Assembly: GCF_001894925.1 (NCBI RefSeq)
Contig: NZ_BCXD01000009.1
Span: 1 to 64,000 of the forward strand
Length of the DNA stretch: 64,000 nucleotides
Reading direction: 5' to 3'
Origin: Rhodococcus rhodnii NBRC 100604
Lineage (GTDB): Bacteria > Actinomycetota > Actinomycetes > Mycobacteriales > Mycobacteriaceae
Positions 19,425 to 34,928 of this stretch are shown in pieces. The position numbers and the translations under genes were made by a program. The notes below the pieces were generated by a model. It did not search any database and was not told the DNA's origin. It saw nothing but the letters and a program-made list of their open reading frames with translations. Position 1 is the first letter of the stretch, and every line of letters begins with the position of its first letter.

Positions 19425-21590
19425 ATGGCACCGACCATCACCGACACCGAGGTGAAGACCTCTCGTATCGACGTGAACGAGGGCCTGGACTATCACGCCC
19501 TCAACGCGATGCTGAACCTGTACGGGCCGAACGGTGAGATCCAGTTCGACAAGGACGTCGCGGCGGCGCGTCAGTACTTCCTGCAGCACGTCAACCAGAA
19601 CACGGTGTTCTTCCACAACCTGGACGAGAAGCTCGACTACCTCGTCGAGGAGAACTACTACGAGCCCGAGGTTCTCGAGCAGTACTCGCGCAGCTTCGTC
19701 AAGTCGCTGATCGATCACGCGTACTCGAAGAAGTTCCGGTTCCCGACGTTCCTCGGCGCCTTCAAGTACTACACGTCCTACACGCTCAAGACGTTCGACG
19801 GAAAGCGCTACCTCGAGCGGTTCGAGGATCGCGTGTGCATGGTGGCGCTCACCCTCGCCGCCGGCGACGAGGTGCTCGCGACGAAGCTCGTCGACGAGAT
19901 CATCTCGGGCCGTTTCCAGCCTGCGACACCGACCTTCCTCAACTCGGGCAAGAAGCAGCGCGGCGAGCCCGTGTCGTGCTTCCTGCTGCGCATCGAGGAC
20001 AACATGGAGTCGATCGGCCGCGCCATCAACTCCGCGCTCCAGCTGTCCAAGCGCGGCGGCGGAGTCGCGTTGCTGCTGAGCAACATTCGTGAGCACGGCG
20101 CGCCCATCAAGCGCATCGAGAACCAGAGTTCGGGCGTCATCCCGATCATGAAGCTGCTCGAGGACTCGTTCTCGTACGCCAACCAGCTCGGCGCGCGGCA
20201 GGGCGCGGGTGCGGTGTATCTGCACGCGCACCACCCCGACATCTACCGCTTCCTCGACACCAAGCGCGAGAACGCGGACGAGAAGATTCGCATCAAGACG
20301 CTCTCGCTCGGCGTCGTGATCCCGGACATCACGTTCGAGCTCGCGAAGAAGAACGAGGACATGTACCTGTTCTCGCCGTACGACGTCGAGCGTATCTACG
20401 GGGTTCCGTTCGCCGACATCAACGTCACCGAGAAGTACCATGAGATGGTCGACGACAAGCGGATCCGCAAGTCGAAGATCAAGGCGCGCGAGTTCTTTCA
20501 GACGCTCGCCGAGCTGCAGTTCGAGTCGGGCTACCCGTACATCATGTTCGAGGACACCGTGAACCGCGCGAATCCCATCGCGGGCAAGGTGACTCACTCG
20601 AACCTGTGCTCGGAGATCCTGCAGGTGTCGACGCCGTCGGAGTTCAACGACGACCTCACCTACAGCAAGATCGGCAAGGACATCTCGTGCAACCTGGGTT
20701 CGATGAACATCGCGAAGGCGATGGACTCCGATGATTTCGGTCAGGCCGTCGAGGTCGCGATCCGTGCACTGACCGCCGTCGCGGACCAGACGTCCATCGA
20801 CTCCGTTCCGTCGATCCGCAAGGCCAACGACGAGGGCCATGCCATCGGACTCGGGCAGATGAATCTGCACGGCTACCTCGCTCGCGAGCGTGTTCACTAC
20901 GGCTCCGACGAGGGTGTCGACTTCACGAACATCTACTTCTACACCGTTGTGTTCCATGCGATCCGGGCGTCGAACGCGATCGCGAAGGAACGCGGCACGT
21001 ACTTCGCGGGCTTCCCCGACTCGAAGTACGCGTCGGGTGAGTACTTCGACAAGTACACCGATCAGGTGTGGGAGCCGAAGACGGAGAAGGTGCGGCAGCT
21101 GTTCGCCGACGCCGGCATCGACATCCCCACGCAGGACGACTGGCGTGAGCTGAAGGCGTCGGTGCAGGAGTACGGGATCTACAACCAGAACCTGCAGGCC
21201 GTCCCGCCGACCGGGTCGATCTCCTACATCAACAACTCCACCAGCTCCATCCACCCGGTGGCGTCGAAGATCGAGATCCGCAAGGAAGGCAAGATCGGTC
21301 GCGTCTACTACCCGGCGCCTTATCTGACGAACGACAACCTGGAGTACTACCAGGACGCGTATGAGATCGGGTACGAGAAGATCATCGACACCTACGCGGC
21401 GGCGACGCAGCACGTCGATCAGGGGCTGTCGCTGACGCTGTTCTTCAAGGACACCGTGACGACCCGCGATCTCAACAAGGCCCAGATCTACGCGTGGCGC
21501 AAGGGAATCAAGACGCTGTACTACATCCGCCTGCGCCAGATGGCGCTCGAGGGGACCGAGGTGGAAAATTGCGTTTCGTGCATGTTGTGA
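19425..21590 (+). CDS. nrdE: Class Ib ribonucleoside-diphosphate reductase large subunit
   Basis: 721 aa, full length for NrdE. Active-site cysteines lie in GEPVSCFLL and in HSNLCSEI (the thiyl-radical strand); NLGSMNIA and [14 protein letters not shown] are family signatures. The C-terminal redox pair is in ENCVSCML, which NrdH reduces. There is no N-terminal ATP-cone, as expected for class Ib. It reduces ribonucleoside diphosphates for DNA synthesis. Confidence 0.98.
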
Positions 21591-21623
21591 CATCAGGCGC
21601 ACCTACCACCGAACAATCCGTGA

Positions 21624-22643
<1,020 letters not shown>

Positions 22644-23297: not shown

Positions 23298-23870
23298 TCA
23301 GCGCTTGCCGGTCCAGAACCCAACGGGAATCGGTAACTGAGGCATCGCGGTCGCCGGAGCGAACGACACCGCCAGACCGCCGTACGGGAGCACCTCAGCA
23401 CTCACGAAGAGGAGTCCGCGTTCGTTCGCCAGACGTGCGATCGCCACGATCGGGAGGGCCGCGAACGTGCGGTTCACGAATTCGAGGCGCGTTCGTCCGC
23501 TGTCGAACTGCTCCATGACGTGGAGCCGTAGTTCGTCGTCCAACCGGAGTTCGCGGCCGGTGTTCGGCGGTGCGAGTACCCGGGCGAACGCGTGATACGA
23601 CGGTCCGCCGACTGCGAAGTGGTTCGCAGCGAACACGTATCCGTAGGAAGCAGCTATCTGCGCCATGACGGTCGGGTCGAGCCCGGTGCGGAGGATGGGT
23701 ACGAAAGCCCAGTCTTCGCCGTCGAACCGACGGGCGAACCGCGCAGCCTTGTCCTCGTGCGATAGGAATCGCCCGCGCAGGGCCGAGATCGCCACTGCAC
23801 CCAGGGCGGCCAGAGCGACGAACGCGACCAGCGACAGGACGAACGGTGACCACGTGGCGTCTTCAGGCAC
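23298..23870 (-). CDS. Membrane protein with two copies of the array domain (type C)
   Basis: 190 aa from GTG. An N-terminal membrane span (about 10-32, FVLSLVAFVALAALGAVAI) is followed by a basic stretch. Then come two successive copies of the roughly 50-residue domain seen in the upstream A and B proteins: about 49-100 (RFDGEDWAF, MAQIAASYGYVFAANH) and 121-172 (QFDSGRTRL, IARLANERGLLFVSAE). This looks like a fused or duplicated derivative of the array members. It is the last gene of the array. I do not recognise the family. Confidence 0.7.
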   Translation of the reverse strand: MPEDATWSPFVLSLVAFVALAALGAVAISALRGRFLSHEDKAARFARRFDGEDWAFVPILRTGLDPTVMAQIAASYGYVFAANHFAVGGPSYHAFARVLAPPNTGRELRLDDELRLHVMEQFDSGRTRLEFVNRTFAALPIVAIARLANERGLLFVSAEVLPYGGLAVSFAPATAMPQLPIPVGFWTGKR

Positions 23871-23894
23871 CGGGCACCTGCCGATCAGGAGTTG

Positions 23895-24350
23895 TCATCG
23901 CAGCTGAGTCGGGTATGCGGACCACCGGTGACGCAGTGTGGGAAGTCGAGGCGAGGGAGGCGAGGGAAGCATCTGGAACGCCACTTTGACGCTTCCGAAG
24001 GTGTAGCCCGTCTCGCCGATGTAGTAGTAGCCGAAGCTGTTGGCGATGGCGTTCATCTCGGCAACGCTGATCGTGTAGTTGCGCGGATCCACGGTGACTA
24101 TCGAACGGCCGTTGAACAGTTCGCTGATGCGGCTCTTCTGGATGTCAGTGGGGGCGGCTGTCTTACGCCGATACCACACCTTCAGTCGGTGGTGGACCGG
24201 AAAGAGGCCGAGCGCCGCGAAGCCGAGAATCAGCAGAACCCAGAAAGCGAACTGAATTGCAGTGTTGGCCGGCGCCGAATCAGCCGCATTGGCGAGGACG
24301 GTCACGAAATCGGAATGCCACGGTCTTCCTAGCGAATCGCGTTGCATCAT
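23895..24350 (-). CDS. Type B array protein: one membrane span plus array domain (B5)
   Basis: 151 aa from the ATG that overlaps the A5 stop (ATGA). It has a short N-terminus and a membrane span at about 31-52 (FAFWVLLILGFAALGLF). A basic stop-transfer segment (HHRLKVWYRRK) predicts a cytosolic C-terminus. The array domain is at about 77-130 (LFNGRSIVTVDPRNYTISV, MNAIANSFGYYYIGETG), with a Pro-rich tail (LPSPPSPRLP). A farther upstream in-frame start would overlap A5 by 70 bp and is not preferred. Function unknown. Confidence 0.72.
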   Translation of the reverse strand: MMQRDSLGRPWHSDFVTVLANAADSAPANTAIQFAFWVLLILGFAALGLFPVHHRLKVWYRRKTAAPTDIQKSRISELFNGRSIVTVDPRNYTISVAEMNAIANSFGYYYIGETGYTFGSVKVAFQMLPSPPSPRLPTLRHRWSAYPTQLR

Positions 24351-24610
24351 CGGTCGAGTGTGGTCTTTCGAAAATAGAAGTTTCCGGTCCTTTGGTATTT
24401 CCCGCGCATACCCCATGCGAACGCGTATCCCTTTGTCGCGGCGATCAACGCCAGTTCGTGAGGAGGAAGCGATTCCGAGTATATTTCGACGAGGTCATCA
24501 CCGTTGAATCTTGCTGCGATGCGCGAACGATAAGCGGCAAATGTTCCCGGATTGCTTTGCTCGTGTGGTAGATACAAGAGGACTCCTAGAACAGTGTTTC
24601 GAGATCCCAT
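24347..24610 (-). CDS. Type A array protein: small soluble array domain (A5)
   Basis: 87 aa if started at MGSRNTVLG; an internal TTG preceded by GGAG (giving YLPHEQSN...) is an alternative start. The array domain reads RFNGDDLVEIYSESLPPHEL then IAATKGYAFAWGMRGKY and NFYFRK. No membrane span. Its stop overlaps the B5 start. It is the most divergent A copy (GKYQ replaces RSGRY). The DNA here is unusually AT-rich for the window (28 G/C in 24541-24600). Confidence 0.65.
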   Translation of the reverse strand: MGSRNTVLGVLLYLPHEQSNPGTFAAYRSRIAARFNGDDLVEIYSESLPPHELALIAATKGYAFAWGMRGKYQRTGNFYFRKTTLDR

Positions 24611-24651
24611 ACGTGACCGTGCTACTAGGTCAACCCGGTCCGGAATCGACC

Positions 24652-25069
24652 TTAGAAGCGTTTAGTATGGAGGATGAACTGCACGCTTTCCGAATCCATT
24701 GTTGGAATTCTCGGTGGAGGAGGTGAGGGCATTCGTTCGGACCCGACACGGGTCGCTCCACGTCGATTTCCGCGCTCACCGATGTAGTAGAACCCATTCC
24801 TGTTTGCGACGCAATTAATCGTATATATCGGAACGGTGAAGTTGCGCGGATCTACGACAACGATATTGCTCTGTCCGAAACAATTTGTCCAGATTATTGA
24901 GCTGGCTCGCCTCGGAGCCCGCGCGCAGGCGGCGAGTTGCGATTTTGAGGCGATGGATGGGATTGCTTACCGCGATGGTGCACAGGGCGAGGCCGAGCAG
25001 CGCGAAGCCCAGTACCTCGAGAAAGCTCGCTGACTCGCCGGCGGACCCGGCTGCGAACATGGCGGTCAT
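24652..25069 (-). pseudogene. Frameshifted type B array gene (B4)
   Basis: The ATG overlaps the A4 stop, and the first 64 or so residues follow B2 closely (membrane span, then NPIHRLKIATRRLRAG). At about 24877 the frame breaks after LDKLF. Skipping one base restores the domain: GQSNIVVVDPRNFTVPIYT, CVANRNGFYYIGERGNRRG, then MPSPPPRIPTMD, ending in TAA at 24652. As read, translation stops at 24815. It is either a real indel in a decaying copy or, less likely, a sequencing error. Confidence 0.75.
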
Positions 25070-25299
25070 CGGTGAGCCTCCGGGCGCTGGTAGAGGAGTC
25101 GGAAGCACCAGAAATCGGACGTACCATAGCGGCCAGACCGTTTTCCGCGTGCAAACTCGTATCCATGCAATCTCGCGACCCGGGCGACCTCAGCGGCGTC
25201 CAGTCTCGGGTCGGGGAGCAGCAAAACCTCGTCGCGTCCGTCGAAAAGCAATTCGGGGCAAGGTCGAACGGGAACGGTACCGAAACTCCGATCGGTCAT
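25066..25299 (-). CDS. Type A array protein (A4)
   Basis: 77 aa, starting MTDRSFGTVP, with SD AAGGA seven bases upstream. The array domain is LLFDGRDEVLLLPDPRL, then VARLHGYEFARGKRSGRYG and FWCFRLLY. It is very similar to A2 (shared FDGRDEV, HGYEF, RGKRSGRYG and FRLLY). The B copies beside A4 and A2 also match each other best, so the A2-B2 and A4-B4 modules look like a recent segmental duplication. No membrane span; cytosolic. Function unknown. Confidence 0.72.
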   Translation of the reverse strand: MTDRSFGTVPVRPCPELLFDGRDEVLLLPDPRLDAAEVARVARLHGYEFARGKRSGRYGTSDFWCFRLLYQRPEAHR

Positions 25300-25324
25300 T
25301 CGCCATCCTTATGTGCGAGCTTGA

Positions 25325-25765
25325 TTAGGCATCAAGCGGGCGCCATCGGCTGGGGGCGGCAGGTATTCGTAGCGGGGGAGGCCCGGACAGTCGTTGGAAA
25401 GCCACCTGGGTGCTCCCGACGATGTTGCCTCTCTCGCCGATGTAATAGTGGCCGTGCGAGTTAGCGATGGCGTTCATACAGGCGACGGAGATCGTGTAGA
25501 ATCGCGGATCGATGACGACGACATCCTTACCGTGAAATTTTGCGTCGATCCGGCGGATCTGTTCGTCCTCTCCGGCGGCGCGTCTACGGCCCCACCAGCA
25601 GATGATTCGGTGATCGAGGCGAAAAGCGATCTGGAAAGCGAGGAGCGTCGACGCTGCGAACCCGACGATTACGACTGTGACTGCAGCCGCCCCACTGCCC
25701 TGGCGGGCTTCCGACGCCAACGTGACGACAGCGGGATCCAGGAGTATGTGCATGTGTCGGTTCAT
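25325..25765 (-). CDS. Type B array protein (B3)
   Basis: 146 aa, starting MNRHMHILLDPAVV two bases after the A3 stop. The membrane span (about 28-50, AVTVVIVGFAASTLLAFQIAF) is followed by a basic segment (WWGRRRAAG). The array domain is at about 70-125 (KFHGKDVVVIDPRFYTISVA, AIANSHGHYYIGERG, STQVAFQRL), with tail GPPPLRIP. The longer reading frame upstream overlaps A3 and is rejected. It looks intact although its A partner is broken. Confidence 0.72.
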   Translation of the reverse strand: MNRHMHILLDPAVVTLASEARQGSGAAAVTVVIVGFAASTLLAFQIAFRLDHRIICWWGRRRAAGEDEQIRRIDAKFHGKDVVVIDPRFYTISVACMNAIANSHGHYYIGERGNIVGSTQVAFQRLSGPPPLRIPAAPSRWRPLDA

Positions 25766-25767
25766 TC

Positions 25768-25981
25768 TCAATCGGCTGGGAACAGTCGGCGGAAATAGTA
25801 GGTACTGACGTCGAGTCCGTTGCTGCCCCGTCTCGTCCCGTAGGCGAACACGTATCCACACTCATAGGCGACACGTGCGAGCACCTCGGGGTGGATATGG
25901 TGCGAGGCTCCGAACTCGACCAGGGCGCTGCCGTCGAACCAGTGCGCGTAGGGCGGGAGGTGCTCGGGGCGGGTGGTTCAT
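25768..25981 (-). pseudogene. Frameshifted type A array gene (A3)
   Basis: A consensus SD (AGGAGG) lies just before ATG at 25981, but the ATG frame is not the A frame. One base later the A protein is read cleanly: TTRPEHLPPYAHWFDGSALV, then VAYECGYVFAYGTRRG and STYYFRRLFPAD, stop at 25768. No start codon exists in that frame after the TGA at 25978-25980, which is the stop of the preceding small frame. A one-base indel right after the ATG explains it. Confidence 0.7.
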
Positions 25982-26208
25982 CGTCTGCCCTCCTGGACAA
26001 TCGGATCACCGACATCAAGGCGATCGATGATCGCAAATGCGAGTGCTATCAGGTTTTCCATATCCTGTTTGCGTTGCATTCCGAAATCCATGGACAGCAA
26101 TTGTGGCGGCGTTGTCGATCGGTACCACCGCCCGATCGGATCCCCAACCGCCGAGTGAAGATTCCCGCAGACGGAATCTCGCGAGCCGTGGTCGGGCGCG
26201 ACCAGCAC
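25978..26208 (-). CDS. Uncertain small ORF upstream of A3
   Basis: 76 codons from a GTG without SD. The C-terminal part (MENLIALAFAIIDRLDVGDP) could be a real short protein starting at an internal ATG. It does not show the array domain. Its TGA overlaps the A3 ATG (ATGA) and is also in frame with the A3 domain, so X and A3 may once have been one frame. It may instead be the remnant of a lost B gene. Low confidence that it is expressed. Confidence 0.3.
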   Translation of the reverse strand: MLVAPDHGSRDSVCGNLHSAVGDPIGRWYRSTTPPQLLSMDFGMQRKQDMENLIALAFAIIDRLDVGDPIVQEGRR

Positions 26209-26283
26209 GTCAGAGGTTTTTCACGCGGAGGTGGCGCTGAGACTCTCGTCCAAGTCACCTGTTGACCAGAGAGCAGAGGGGAC

Positions 26284-26721
26284 TCATCTGGGCCGAATTC
26301 CTTCGCGTAATCTTCGAACTGCTCGCCAAGAAGGCGTGTCCATGTTGGGGATTCGCGGCGGTGGCGGAGTTGTCCTACGGTTGAAGAATACGCGTGTTGC
26401 ACCGGCGGAGTTTCCCCTTTCGCCAGCATAGAAGTAGCCATGTTGATTCGCGATCTGGTTCATTTCATAAATCCGAATCGTGTAGTTCCTAGGGTCTATC
26501 GCGACTACGCGATCCTCCCCGAACCTCGAGTCGATTCGTTTGAACTGATGCCCACGATTCCCCGCGCGCAGGCGGCGTGTGGCAATCTTGAGTCGATGAA
26601 CCGGGTGGCTGAGCAATACTCCGGTGGCGATCATAGTTGCTATAGTGACCGCCAGGACGGATAGTAATGTTGCGAAATCGCTAGACCCGCTGGCAGCCGA
26701 AACGGTGCCGTGGTCCGTCAT
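26284..26721 (-). CDS. Type B array protein (B2)
   Basis: 145 aa from an ATG overlapping the A2 stop (ATGA). The membrane span is at about 17-38 (LLSVLAVTIATMIATGVLL). The basic segment HRLKIATRRLRAG is nearly the same as in B4. The array domain reads RFGEDRVVAIDPRNYTIRIY, then QIANQHGYFYAGERG and RVFFNRRT, with Pro-rich tail TPPPPRIPNMD and a basic C-terminus. Predicted cytosolic domain, single-pass. Function unknown. Confidence 0.72.
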   Translation of the reverse strand: MTDHGTVSAASGSSDFATLLSVLAVTIATMIATGVLLSHPVHRLKIATRRLRAGNRGHQFKRIDSRFGEDRVVAIDPRNYTIRIYEMNQIANQHGYFYAGERGNSAGATRVFFNRRTTPPPPRIPNMDTPSWRAVRRLREGIRPR

Positions 26722-26960
26722 GTGATTATCCCCGTTGCAGGGTACAAGAGCCGAAACAGCCAGTATTCGGCCTGCCCGTAACGCCCTGATCGCTTACCTC
26801 GAGAGAATTCGTAGCCGTGCCGACGCGCCGTATCGGCGACTTCGGCGGGAGAAAGCCTCGGATCTGCGATCAGAGCGACCTCGTCACGGCCATCGAAGAA
26901 GAGTTCGTAATGGTAGATCCCGGTCGGATCCGAATACGGCCAAGGTCGGGGTGTGGTCAT
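26718..26960 (-). CDS. Type A array protein (A2)
   Basis: 80 aa, starting MTTPRPWPYSDPTG. The upstream in-frame extension is rejected because the short start matches the other A proteins. Array domain: FFDGRDEVALIADPRLSP, then ARRHGYEFSRGKRSGRYG and YWLFRLLYP. No membrane span. The stop overlaps B2. Spacing to the preceding B1 stop is 60 nt, the first gap in an otherwise overlapping gene chain, and may hold an internal promoter. Confidence 0.72.
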   Translation of the reverse strand: MTTPRPWPYSDPTGIYHYELFFDGRDEVALIADPRLSPAEVADTARRHGYEFSRGKRSGRYGQAEYWLFRLLYPATGIIT

Positions 26961-27020
26961 ATATGAGCTTCTCTGGGAGGATGCGGCAGTGTTGTGGCTG
27001 CCGAACAAGTCGGAAAGTCG

Positions 27021-27428
27021 CTATTCCATCGGCTTCCATCGATTCGTAGTGGATGGGAGGCGGATGGGCGGCGGTCCAGGCAGCTTCTGAAACGCAACTT
27101 CGGTGCTCACGCCGAGGTGACCGTTCTCGCCGATATAGTAGTATCCGTACCCGTTCGCGATCGCGTTCATCCTGGACACGGCGATAGTCGTGCGGCGGGG
27201 GTCGGCAGTGACGATCGGTCGTCCGTCGAACTTGGAGTGAAACCGTTCCTCGGCTGTGCTGTAGGAAACAGGCCGTCTGTGGGTTCGCCATCGAATTACT
27301 CGAGCTCGGTTCCGGGGGTTTCTCGCCACGACGAGAAGTGAGATCGCCGCGATTGTTCCGAGTGCGACGAAAATTCCCGAAGGTGACCCGCCGGAGGCGG
27401 CCGCGAGGATGATTGTTTCGGTTCTCAT
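27021..27428 (-). CDS. Type B array protein (B1)
   Basis: 135 aa from an ATG overlapping the A1 stop (ATGA). The membrane span (about 15-37, GIFVALGTIAAISLLVV) is followed by a basic segment (RNRARVIRWRTHRRP). Array domain: KFDGRPIVTADPRRTTIAV, MNAIANGYGYYYIGENGH, STEVAFQKL, with tail PGPPPIRLPS. It is the copy nearest the ESX genes. Confidence 0.74.
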   Translation of the reverse strand: MRTETIILAAASGGSPSGIFVALGTIAAISLLVVARNPRNRARVIRWRTHRRPVSYSTAEERFHSKFDGRPIVTADPRRTTIAVSRMNAIANGYGYYYIGENGHLGVSTEVAFQKLPGPPPIRLPSTTNRWKPME

Positions 27429-27625
27429 TGGTTCGTGAACAGGTTCCGGAAGTAGTACAGCGTGATGTCGGAGAATTGGCCGTGGCGCTGGCCCCACGCG
27501 AACACGTAGCCGTGCTGATACGCGACTTCTGCGAGCTCCTGCGGTGAAGAATAGAGCCCTGGGGTGGCGATCACAATGTCGCGCCCATCGAAAAGTCCTG
27601 AATCGGAAGAGCGGACGTGTGTCAT
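27425..27625 (-). CDS. Type A array protein (A1), coupled to the ESX locus
   Basis: 66 aa, starting MTHVRSSDSG at an ATG that overlaps the stop of the 217-aa gene (ATGA). Array domain: LFDGRDIVIATPGLYSSPQE, then VAYQHGYVFAWGQRHGQF and YYFRNLF. It is the smallest copy and essentially only the domain. The overlap chain 29836 to 27021 (WXG100-like, T7SS protein, 217-aa protein, A1, B1) indicates a single translationally coupled unit, linking the array to type VII secretion. Confidence 0.74.
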   Translation of the reverse strand: MTHVRSSDSGLFDGRDIVIATPGLYSSPQELAEVAYQHGYVFAWGQRHGQFSDITLYYFRNLFTNQ

Positions 27626-28275
27626 CGTGAACCCGCGCTTTCTGGTGATTCGCTCTCGGTCGATTGTGGATCCCACCGGATCGAGGAGATCATCTGTAGT
27701 GCGTACTTCAGAAAGGTCGGCCAATGTTCTCGCGATGAACTGCCGACGCTGGCGACGAGAATCTCCTGGCAGACTAGGGATGGAATCAGGGCTTGCAGCG
27801 TGTCTGTCGTGATTGGATCGGGCGCTGCGACTTCTTTTCGGACTCCCGATGCAGCGTCGGGGGCCGCGATCCGTCCGGAGCGGAGCACGAGAACGGTCGG
27901 GCCGCACGGGAGGTCGCGATACTGAACCACCGCGGCGGGATTGCTCTTCATGAGAGAAGAGCCGATTGCCTGTGCCATCTCGCTCGCCGATTCTTCGGAG
28001 TCCTCGACATCCAGTCTGCGATGGCCCAGACTCGTGCGGGCGATAGTGAAGCACGCGTAGTGCTCGGGCTCCAGCTCCGGGATGACGAGTTGGCCTGCAA
28101 AGAAGACTCCCGACTCGTGAAGCTTTTCGGATAGCCCGAGTATCGCCTCGCTCACATGCCCTGAGGTGAAGCCTGCCAAGCTCGCGATCAGCGAGGCATC
28201 GGCATGCCGTTGTTCGCTGTCACCGGTTACAGGTAGAGGAATGAAGCCAGAAGGGACCGATAGTGCCAGGGTCAT
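27622..28275 (-). CDS. Unknown protein of the ESX-linked operon
   Basis: 217 aa, starting MTLALSVPSGFIPLPVTG, with an ATGA overlap with the T7SS gene upstream and with A1 downstream. It appears soluble, with helix-rich parts (SEAILGLSEKLHESGVFFAG) and an alpha/beta pattern (VVQYRDLPCGPTVLVLRSG). The C-terminal segment LKYALQMISSIRWDP could be a docking helix. No signal peptide or known motif. From its place it may be a chaperone, immunity or accessory factor for the secreted protein; this is conjecture. Confidence 0.6.
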   Translation of the reverse strand: MTLALSVPSGFIPLPVTGDSEQRHADASLIASLAGFTSGHVSEAILGLSEKLHESGVFFAGQLVIPELEPEHYACFTIARTSLGHRRLDVEDSEESASEMAQAIGSSLMKSNPAAVVQYRDLPCGPTVLVLRSGRIAAPDAASGVRKEVAAPDPITTDTLQALIPSLVCQEILVASVGSSSREHWPTFLKYALQMISSIRWDPQSTESESPESAGSR

Positions 28276-29495
28276 CGGTCTCCCCGAACCACGTTGATGA
28301 CCGGGCCGACGATCGGCCCAGTCAATGCTGTTGTTGCGAGCTCCGAGGGAGTCTCGGGGACGAGATACTCGCCGATGTCGTCGACGATGGTCGTGGCTCC
28401 CTCCACGCCGAAGGCCTTCATTCCAACCGGTGTGGCGAGTGACGCGGATGCACTCATCTTCGTGAGATCGGTTCCCACAGCAATGAGATTGTCAGCTTGC
28501 GCGAGAAGTGCACCGCTCTCGGCGAATTTGCCGGCACTGTGTGCCAAGTTGCCTGCTGCGGTCGCAGACTCGGCGTAGAGCCCGATGATCTTTCCGGCCC
28601 CGCCGGTGGCAACACCGAACGCATCCATCCCAATCGCTGTCCACGTCACGTTCTCGGAGCCTGCGCTCATCGCCACAGCGTGACCAGCGAGAGCTGCAAC
28701 GCCGAGCGCCAATGACGCTGTTCCGAGTGCGCCGCTGAGTGGAGGAAAAGCGAGCGTGAGCGCAGAAGCCGTACCCAAGACGGTGCTGAGGGTCGACAGC
28801 GTGTTCGAGATCTCGTTGATCAGATCGGCGTTTTCCTTGATGAACTCCCAGATCTCGAGATGGAAGTCGATGATTCCGTCGAGCAGAGCCTTGTGCGCGT
28901 CGATGATCTTGTCGAGCAGGCTCTGTTCAGGTGCTTCGTCGGCGGCTTGTCGGAGTAGCCGCGCGGTGAGATCCGCGAGTTCTTCGTGCCGGGCAAAAAG
29001 CATCTTCGCGCGGTCGAGGAGTGCTTCGAGTTCGTCCCTGGCCTTGGCGAGTTGGGCGACAGCGGCATCGAGACGCGCCTGTGCGGCGGCGAGCGAGGCG
29101 GCGTCGTCGTAGGTGCGACCGGCTTCGTTCAGACCCGGATTCGACTGCGCTGCCTCGAGATTGCGCCGCGCGATCGCCGCTTCGGCCTCGAGTCGGTCTG
29201 CATCACGCTGCATCGAGACAAGATCGTCTCGCCACACGCCGAGGGCGTCCGACGCCCGCCGCATCGCGGTGCCCGCAGTGTCCAGATAGGAGGGGAGTTC
29301 GCCGATCTTGCTGCGGAAGGCGTCCGCCGCTTGCCCACGCCAGATCCCGTCGGAGTACCCGACGCGGATGAGGGCTTCCTTGGCCGACAACAGGCGCGCA
29401 GCGACGGCGCCCATCTCGTCGGACAGGGACGCGACCCTGGACGGATTGCCGGGGGACGGGTCGAAGCCGAGTGCCGGAAATGCGGGCCGAGTCAT
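28272..29495 (-). CDS. Putative type VII (ESX) secreted WxG protein
   Basis: 407 aa. The N-terminal 100 residues form a helical hairpin with the WxG motif in IWRGQAADAFRSKIGELPSYL. A long coiled-coil stretch follows (about 85-175; many A/E/R heptads, LDAAVAQLAKARDELEALLD). A hydrophobic Gly/Ala-rich centre comes next (about 225-300, LSTVLGTASALTLAFPPLSG). The C-terminus is short (EYLVPETPSELATT...). This resembles actinomycete T7SS-signal proteins and LXG-like effectors, but no toxin catalytic motif is visible. It starts one base into the stop of the WXG100-like gene. Confidence 0.75.
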   Translation of the reverse strand: MTRPAFPALGFDPSPGNPSRVASLSDEMGAVAARLLSAKEALIRVGYSDGIWRGQAADAFRSKIGELPSYLDTAGTAMRRASDALGVWRDDLVSMQRDADRLEAEAAIARRNLEAAQSNPGLNEAGRTYDDAASLAAAQARLDAAVAQLAKARDELEALLDRAKMLFARHEELADLTARLLRQAADEAPEQSLLDKIIDAHKALLDGIIDFHLEIWEFIKENADLINEISNTLSTLSTVLGTASALTLAFPPLSGALGTASLALGVAALAGHAVAMSAGSENVTWTAIGMDAFGVATGGAGKIIGLYAESATAAGNLAHSAGKFAESGALLAQADNLIAVGTDLTKMSASASLATPVGMKAFGVEGATTIVDDIGEYLVPETPSELATTALTGPIVGPVINVVRGDR

Positions 29496-29836
29496 CAGAG
29501 GTTGAGGCTCGAGCCAGCGGCGGGAACGTCGGGGATCGCGCTGCCGACCGCCGTGATCGAATCCGCGGTGGCCTGCTCCTGTGCGACGTAGAGGTCACGT
29601 GTGGTCCGCAATCCGTCGGCCATCGATGCCGTGGACTTCGCGATCTGCTCGATCCCGTACTGCCACTTGTCGCGAAACTTTCCGGCGGCGGCGTCCAGGC
29701 CGACGTTGCCCAGATCGCCGCTGTTCGTGTCCGCGAGACGATCGTTCGCCGCCTTCATGTCATCCGCTGCGGAGTCGAGCGTGTCGATGAGTACACCGAA
29801 CGCTGCGACATCCAGATAGAGATCTTCCCCCGGCAC
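29495..29836 (-). CDS. WXG100-like (ESX) small secreted protein
   Basis: 113 aa from GTG with a purine-rich SD (AGGGGGG). It is all-helical with a central turn: helix 1 VAAFGVLIDTLDSAADDMKAA, the W of DKWQYG near the turn, helix 2 with the secretion-type motif YxxxE (YVAQE). These are hallmarks of EsxA/B and LXG-partner proteins exported as dimers by type VII secretion. TGATG overlap with the larger WxG gene suggests the two form the secreted pair. No ESX core (EccC etc.) is in the window. Confidence 0.75.
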   Translation of the reverse strand: MPGEDLYLDVAAFGVLIDTLDSAADDMKAANDRLADTNSGDLGNVGLDAAAGKFRDKWQYGIEQIAKSTASMADGLRTTRDLYVAQEQATADSITAVGSAIPDVPAAGSSLNL

Positions 29837-31581: not shown

Positions 31582-31804
31582 TCTTTGCATTCGACGCGCC
31601 CTGTGCGAGTGCCGATTACGGGACGAAGTGCCCGGGAACGGTGCAGGTGAGAGCGAGGGTCCAGCGGTTGCGCGAGGGCCGAGTACGACACAGGGTAGGA
31701 CCGAGTCGTCGGCCCCGATTCGGACGGTCTACGATTCCGGAGAGCGCAAGCCAGAGAAGACCGTCTTCCCCCTGGTCGGGGTGGACGCGCATTCAGGAGG
31801 ATCA

Positions 31805-34928
<3,124 letters not shown>

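Follow-up and report, generated by a model that had tools for sequence, protein, structure and literature searches.

The operon and its tail of paired genes

In the window that we analyzed, a stretch of 64,000 nucleotides from Rhodococcus rhodnii NBRC 100604 (contig NZ_BCXD01000009.1, positions 1 to 64,000), we observe a run of minus-strand genes, from position 29836 down to 23298, in the order W, T, P217, A1-B1, A2-B2, A3-B3, A4-B4, A5-B5 and C, which reads as one operon with an A/B array at its tail. The first gene, W (29495..29836), encodes a WXG100/EspC-like small protein of 113 amino acids (aa) with a YxxxE motif close to its C-terminus; it is followed by T (28272..29495; 407 aa), a candidate secreted effector with a type VII secretion system (T7SS) secretion-signal domain, a WxG motif and an Ala-rich C-terminal half, and by P217 (27622..28275; 217 aa), a soluble protein with a predicted Mog1/PsbP fold and a candidate chaperone of T. 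An earlier note on this DNA had described the array; the genes and coordinates that it gave are correct, and what it missed are W, T and P217 in front. Because A1 overlaps P217, P217 overlaps T (ATGA in both cases) and T overlaps W (TGATG), we place the array at the end of one operon.

The array consists of five A and five B copies that alternate on this strand and are followed by C, as the earlier note had described. The intact A genes are A1 (27425..27625; 66 aa), which has ATGA overlaps with both P217 and B1, A2 (26718..26960; 80 aa), A4 (25066..25299; 77 aa) and A5 (24347..24610; 87 aa). The intact B genes are B1 (27021..27428; 135 aa), B2 (26284..26721; 145 aa), B3 (25325..25765; 146 aa) and B5 (23895..24350; 151 aa), with membrane helices at residues 17-35, 19-37, 26-44 and 34-52, respectively. 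ATGA overlaps between A and B, previously claimed wherever the coupling is intact, are indeed present at A1/B1, A2/B2 and A4/B4, with ATGATG at A5/B5 and a 2-nucleotide gap instead of an overlap at A3/B3. Two of the 10 A/B genes are broken: in A3 (25768..25981) the domain frame (25771-25977) lacks a start codon and the nearest ATG lies in another frame, and in B4 (24652..25069) the domain and the membrane part are in different frames and, by eye, the F that is conserved in the last strand is missing too. The decay of two copies is therefore real in the assembly as deposited; since this is a draft genome (4.46 Mb in 70 contigs), sequencing error is possible for both genes, above all for A3.

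An iterated profile, which includes the window copies themselves, identified 12 domain copies in the window (E 9e-11 to 9e-36), the number counted before, and two of these (E 9e-23 and 9e-11) follow the single membrane helix of C (23298..23870; 190 aa), making it the double-domain variant. The domains of A2 and A4 are 70% identical and those of B2 and B4 51%, in agreement with the closeness reported for these two modules. B is predicted to have a single membrane helix near its N-terminus, followed by a basic stretch and then by the small alpha-beta-alpha-beta-beta domain. The intact A proteins of the window are without a membrane helix, and the description of A as soluble holds for these; two A proteins of another locus (L027) do carry one. 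We agree with the earlier note that no named family can be recognized: the A, B and C proteins that were scanned gave no fitting Pfam family and no housekeeping family that fits, the proteins other than A1 and A5 gave no fitting NCBIfam family, and A1, B1, B2, B3 and C gave no fitting PADLOC or PHROGs family. A single weak match of B3 in PADLOC was set aside. The fold of the A/B domain has no clear relative.

The data support A and B working as a pair, since the genes are coupled by ATGA overlaps, the distances between copies are correlated, and the domains are ordered in fused proteins. The correlation of A and B distances is r 0.59 over 14 modules from five genomes and r 0.52 (p 0.004) over the window plus Rhodococcus sp. 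HNM0569, a strain that has counterparts of modules 1, 3 and 5 as A-B pairs with 53-84% identity. In fused proteins from other genera, the first domain scores as type 1 and the second as type 2 in all eight that were scored, which come from genera related to one another, with other multi-domain open reading frames (ORFs) left out of this scoring. The two domains of C lean the same way, with scores too low to count.

Distribution, linkage and solitary modules

In the named genome collection, B relatives occur at three loci, all in Rhodococcus, and the B profile matches 6 of 28 genomes of the genus, leaving 22 without a match. Four of the six B-positive genomes, one of which is that of the source strain, share a common locus flanked by nrdEF and ctaD. 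At this site R. marinonascens (L026) and genome G014 (L025) each have one A-B module, and HNM0569 (L024) has five A and four B genes, compared with five of each in the source strain. The nrdEF and ctaD genes on the two sides of the operon (19425-22643 and 31628-33559 of the window) share 92-98% identity with HNM0569, compared with only about 45-47% for P217. The remaining two loci differ: L027 (G018) lies at the end of a contig, where three modules have different neighbours, and L028 (G025) has W, T and P plus a C-like gene only.

P217 has matches in the order (19 of 397 genomes) and the phylum (5 of 296), with the source included in both counts, and in a second family, f14 (81 of 297); 18 + 40 of these loci were retrieved for comparison. 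A total of 64 loci was surveyed, and 62 of them contain P, with T upstream in 61, W in 58 and both in 58. The domain is present within 9 kb and on the same strand as P in 44 of the 62, in 40 of them downstream; with the five Rhodococcus loci found through B removed, this linkage becomes 39 of 57. A six-frame survey of the 64 loci (13,501 ORFs) shows that, among the matches listed, the domain accompanies the operon, and it also gave a domain match on the opposite strand in L111 (E 3e-3). A profile built from nine window proteins alone likewise finds matches in other genomes beside the same operon, for example in L063 (E 7e-13) and L059 (E 9e-8). L073 has a separate array of seven alternating domain ORFs.

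Searching f14 for the domain itself, we identified matches in 69 of 297 genomes. The best 132 listed matches fall into 72 loci, and 51 of these lie no more than 6 kb from P217. An array that occurs mostly without a T7SS neighbour, which the earlier note had named as an observation that would refute its reading, is thus not what we find, given also the presence of T upstream of nearly every P. We read 17 of the 21 loci unlinked to P: one has W and T, and 16 are without W, T and P. Six of these 16 solitary loci are two-ORF modules; four of the six were followed gene by gene and have neighbours without likeness to W, T or P, and two are in genomes without a P match among the matches listed (G543 and G329). 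Of the others, one consists of two two-domain ORFs, one of three ORFs and three of a single short ORF; each of the last five has one large ORF, 488 to 907 aa in length and bearing between one and five copies of the domain, and may belong to a different branch. In L152, L153, L154 and L162-L164, which have no W, T or P in the stretch, ORFs measuring 488 to 1008 aa give between one and five domain matches, some of them weak, and may likewise belong to a branch of their own. In L060, L061, L115 and L116, two ORFs of ~290-395 aa with three domain copies each are located upstream of W rather than downstream of P.

Eighteen of the 62 P loci are without the domain. Eight of these (L065, L069, L071, L074, L107-L109 and L117) encode a ~205 aa one-helix protein between T and P, which may be an alternative immunity protein, and three have a two-helix protein directly behind P, which in L145 may contain an undetected domain copy. 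In L062, L113 and L114, where no domain gene was found directly downstream of P, that position is taken by a protein of 120-155 aa, which presumably resembles YbaB/EbfC.

The candidate effector, its partners and known systems

In ESX substrate pairs of the EspC-EspA type, a small WXG-like gene precedes the gene for a larger helical substrate, as W precedes T here, and a bipartite WxG / YxxxD-E motif is the signature of such a pair; we know of no P217-like or A/B genes at EspC-EspA loci. By sequence, W and T carry this signature and are putative secreted proteins. The match of T to PF21725, a putative T7SS signal domain, is above the cut-off (E 6.5e-7), and PF21725 is found in 20 of 21 T proteins scanned with Pfam at E 0.01. 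WxG is present in all 57 T homologues with a complete N-terminus, and YxxxD/E occurs in the C-terminal region of 57 of 62 W matches, compared with a shuffled mean of 10.2. Matches of W to WXG100, EspC and DUF6507 are weak, every one below the cut-off (PF10824 included). The same genome encodes EccC (TIGR03925; 799.6 bits), the one component of the T7SS machinery searched for, which is above the cut-off in none of 14 control genomes. Compared with HNM0569, the identity of T falls from 83% in the first 190 residues to 68% and then 51% in the tail, and it drops likewise against L025 (56, 51 and 32%) and L026 (55, 53 and 35%); the T of L028 is shorter at its end. In L066 and L118 the T gene is split across two frames.

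P217 has no Pfam family, and 0 of 21 homologues match DUF1795/DcrB at E 0.1. Its AlphaFold2 (AF2) model, with a predicted local distance difference test (pLDDT) score of 86.5, has a Mog1/PsbP-type fold, and its best Foldseek match is Tsi3 (4luq, E 4.3e-4). A tandem pair of P217-type genes is present in L165 (G584), with W, T and a domain gene not detected in the 16 kb stretch.

Eag (DUF1795) proteins, which are chaperones of type VI secretion system (T6SS) effectors according to the portions consulted of PMC12881460 and PMC7773334, share the Mog1/PsbP-type fold that is predicted for P217; P217, by contrast, has no DUF1795 sequence match and sits in a T7SS rather than a T6SS context. A term search of the available text of PMC7773334 gave nothing on T7SS. 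In the literature with an open licence, as far as titles and the starts of abstracts show, we found neither a Mog1/PsbP- or Eag-type chaperone for any T7SS nor a tandem immunity array for an actinobacterial T7SSa.

The closest functional picture is EsxX of S. aureus. In the sections consulted of PMC12744356, a soluble pair that always accompanies this toxin (ExiAB, a heterodimer of DUF5085 proteins) holds it inside, and a membrane pair (ExiCD), of which both proteins are needed and which also occurs alone, neutralizes it outside; the system is a Firmicute T7SSb one, with an LXG domain and a glycine zipper. As there, we find a putative T7SS substrate with a soluble alpha/beta partner that is nearly always encoded alongside it, and a membrane pair that is also present at sites without the candidate toxin gene, here as the six two-ORF modules among the 17 unlinked loci read. 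By arrangement P217 would match ExiAB and A-B would match ExiCD. This is a likeness of arrangement and not of membership, since no part matches those families by sequence: P217 is a single Mog1/PsbP-fold protein and not a DUF5085 heterodimer, no glycine zipper was found in the T of the window, and ExiCD is polytopic, with tandem arrays not described for it in those sections.

Strings of diverged immunity genes are also known in tandem behind toxin genes of firmicute T7SSb, where, as far as the consulted parts of PMC9484751 and PMC10765036 go, such clusters occur in strains without the toxin as well. For example, directly behind the gene for the S. aureus T7SS substrate TspA lies a series of diverged immunity genes; their membrane product, TsaI, belongs to DUF443, is predicted to have five membrane helices and is encoded by one gene per unit (PMC7456083, PMC9484751, both in part). 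The layout here is alike, with diverged membrane genes in tandem immediately behind the substrate genes and immunity as their candidate function; unlike TsaI, the unit has two genes, B has a single helix, and there is no match to DUF443 or another Pfam family. Pairs of actinobacterial WXG-type secreted proteins and immunity genes were predicted from sequence by Zhang et al. 2012 (PMC3482391); in the part of that paper examined, this locus type was not found, and the toxins have recognizable toxin domains, unlike T.

Weighing the explanations

This operon type, made up of unnamed families, is real and recurs, and the reading of it that we favour, at just under even chances, is that it combines a T7SS effector, a chaperone and expandable paired immunity. 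W and T would form a helical substrate pair exported by a type VII (ESX-type) system through their bipartite signal, and P217, going by its predicted fold, would hold on to the C-terminal half of T, which diverges fast and is partly hydrophobic, until export. A and B would be paralogous subunits sharing the domain, with B, and elsewhere also A, anchored in the cell membrane, and would act as a pair that shields the producer from its own T and from the T variants of its neighbours. Competition with related strains making diverged T would keep several diverged A-B modules, with unused ones decaying. The immunity role that the earlier note had proposed fits the tandem expansion, the solitary copies and the pairing, and is itself a candidate role, with no toxin domain found in T. 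A bolder form is possible but doubtful, namely a T7SSa contact weapon parallel to EsxX, in which an ESX substrate silenced by an Eag-like chaperone is countered by a tandem, expandable series of membrane immunity modules, each with two subunits from a new domain family, and in which these modules also serve as solitary protection genes.

Several observations weigh against this reading. T is the weakest link of the proposed system, and its toxicity is a candidate property only: among 25 of the 28 families that a Pfam scan matched in 21 T proteins, none is a known toxin domain; 60 T proteins contain 102 glycine zippers where 115 would be expected, so that there is no enrichment, and the T of the window contains none; predicted membrane segments number 0-3 per T, with none in 13 of 60 and one marginal segment in the window; and the tail may diverge from mere want of constraint. 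The fold of P217 is common to non-chaperones, Tsi3 and LpqN among them. Flanking charge would place the B domain on the cytoplasmic side, and a secreted toxin arrives from the other side. Where P occurs without the domain, 7 of 18 loci have no clear replacement for it. The correlation of A and B distances indicates that the two are inherited together, not that they bind, and within the five modules of the window alone it is not significant (r 0.28, p 0.22).

The predicted cytoplasmic side of the B domain would also allow a docking role for A-B, and we regard it as unlikely that A and B are membrane adaptors of secretion, which dock a W-T-P complex at the membrane or retain T in the envelope, with copies for different T variants or conditions and T no toxin. 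The membrane tether, the shared operon with T and P and the lack of a known toxin domain in T fit such adaptors, but solitary modules without W, T and P in 16 of the 17 unlinked loci read and the absence of the domain from 18 of 62 P loci do not, and five diverged copies next to one T are hard to account for. It is less likely that W-T-P-A-B serves the envelope or signalling, for example in a T7SS cell-surface or development function, the domain being a general membrane-tethered sensor or scaffold also found elsewhere; turnover, decay and expansion at one locus are unusual for a core envelope function, and most genomes of the genus have no B match.

That P217 is itself a Tsi3-like immunity protein, with A and B as hitch-hikers or as orphan immunity genes for other toxins, would agree with its top structural match and with T upstream of P in all but one locus, and is nevertheless improbable: 61 of 62 P proteins have no membrane-length hydrophobic segment (a count made without a separate test for signal peptides), P has not expanded alongside the A/B arrays, although L127 and L165 each have two copies, and A1 overlaps P217. 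Neutral tandem duplication of a small gene pair, with no conflict role, would be compatible with the two broken copies and the non-significant correlation within the window, and is very improbable in view of the A-B pairs that match modules 1, 3 and 5 in HNM0569 and the separate arrays in L027 and L073.

On the favoured reading of an effector operon with paired immunity, the arrangement resembles a bacterial weapon with a set of antidotes stacked up behind it, and the protein families involved are unnamed. If this is true, the locus would be a concrete, testable candidate for an antibacterial T7SSa, an Eag-type fold would be linked to type VII export, and the domain family defined here would serve as a marker of such loci.
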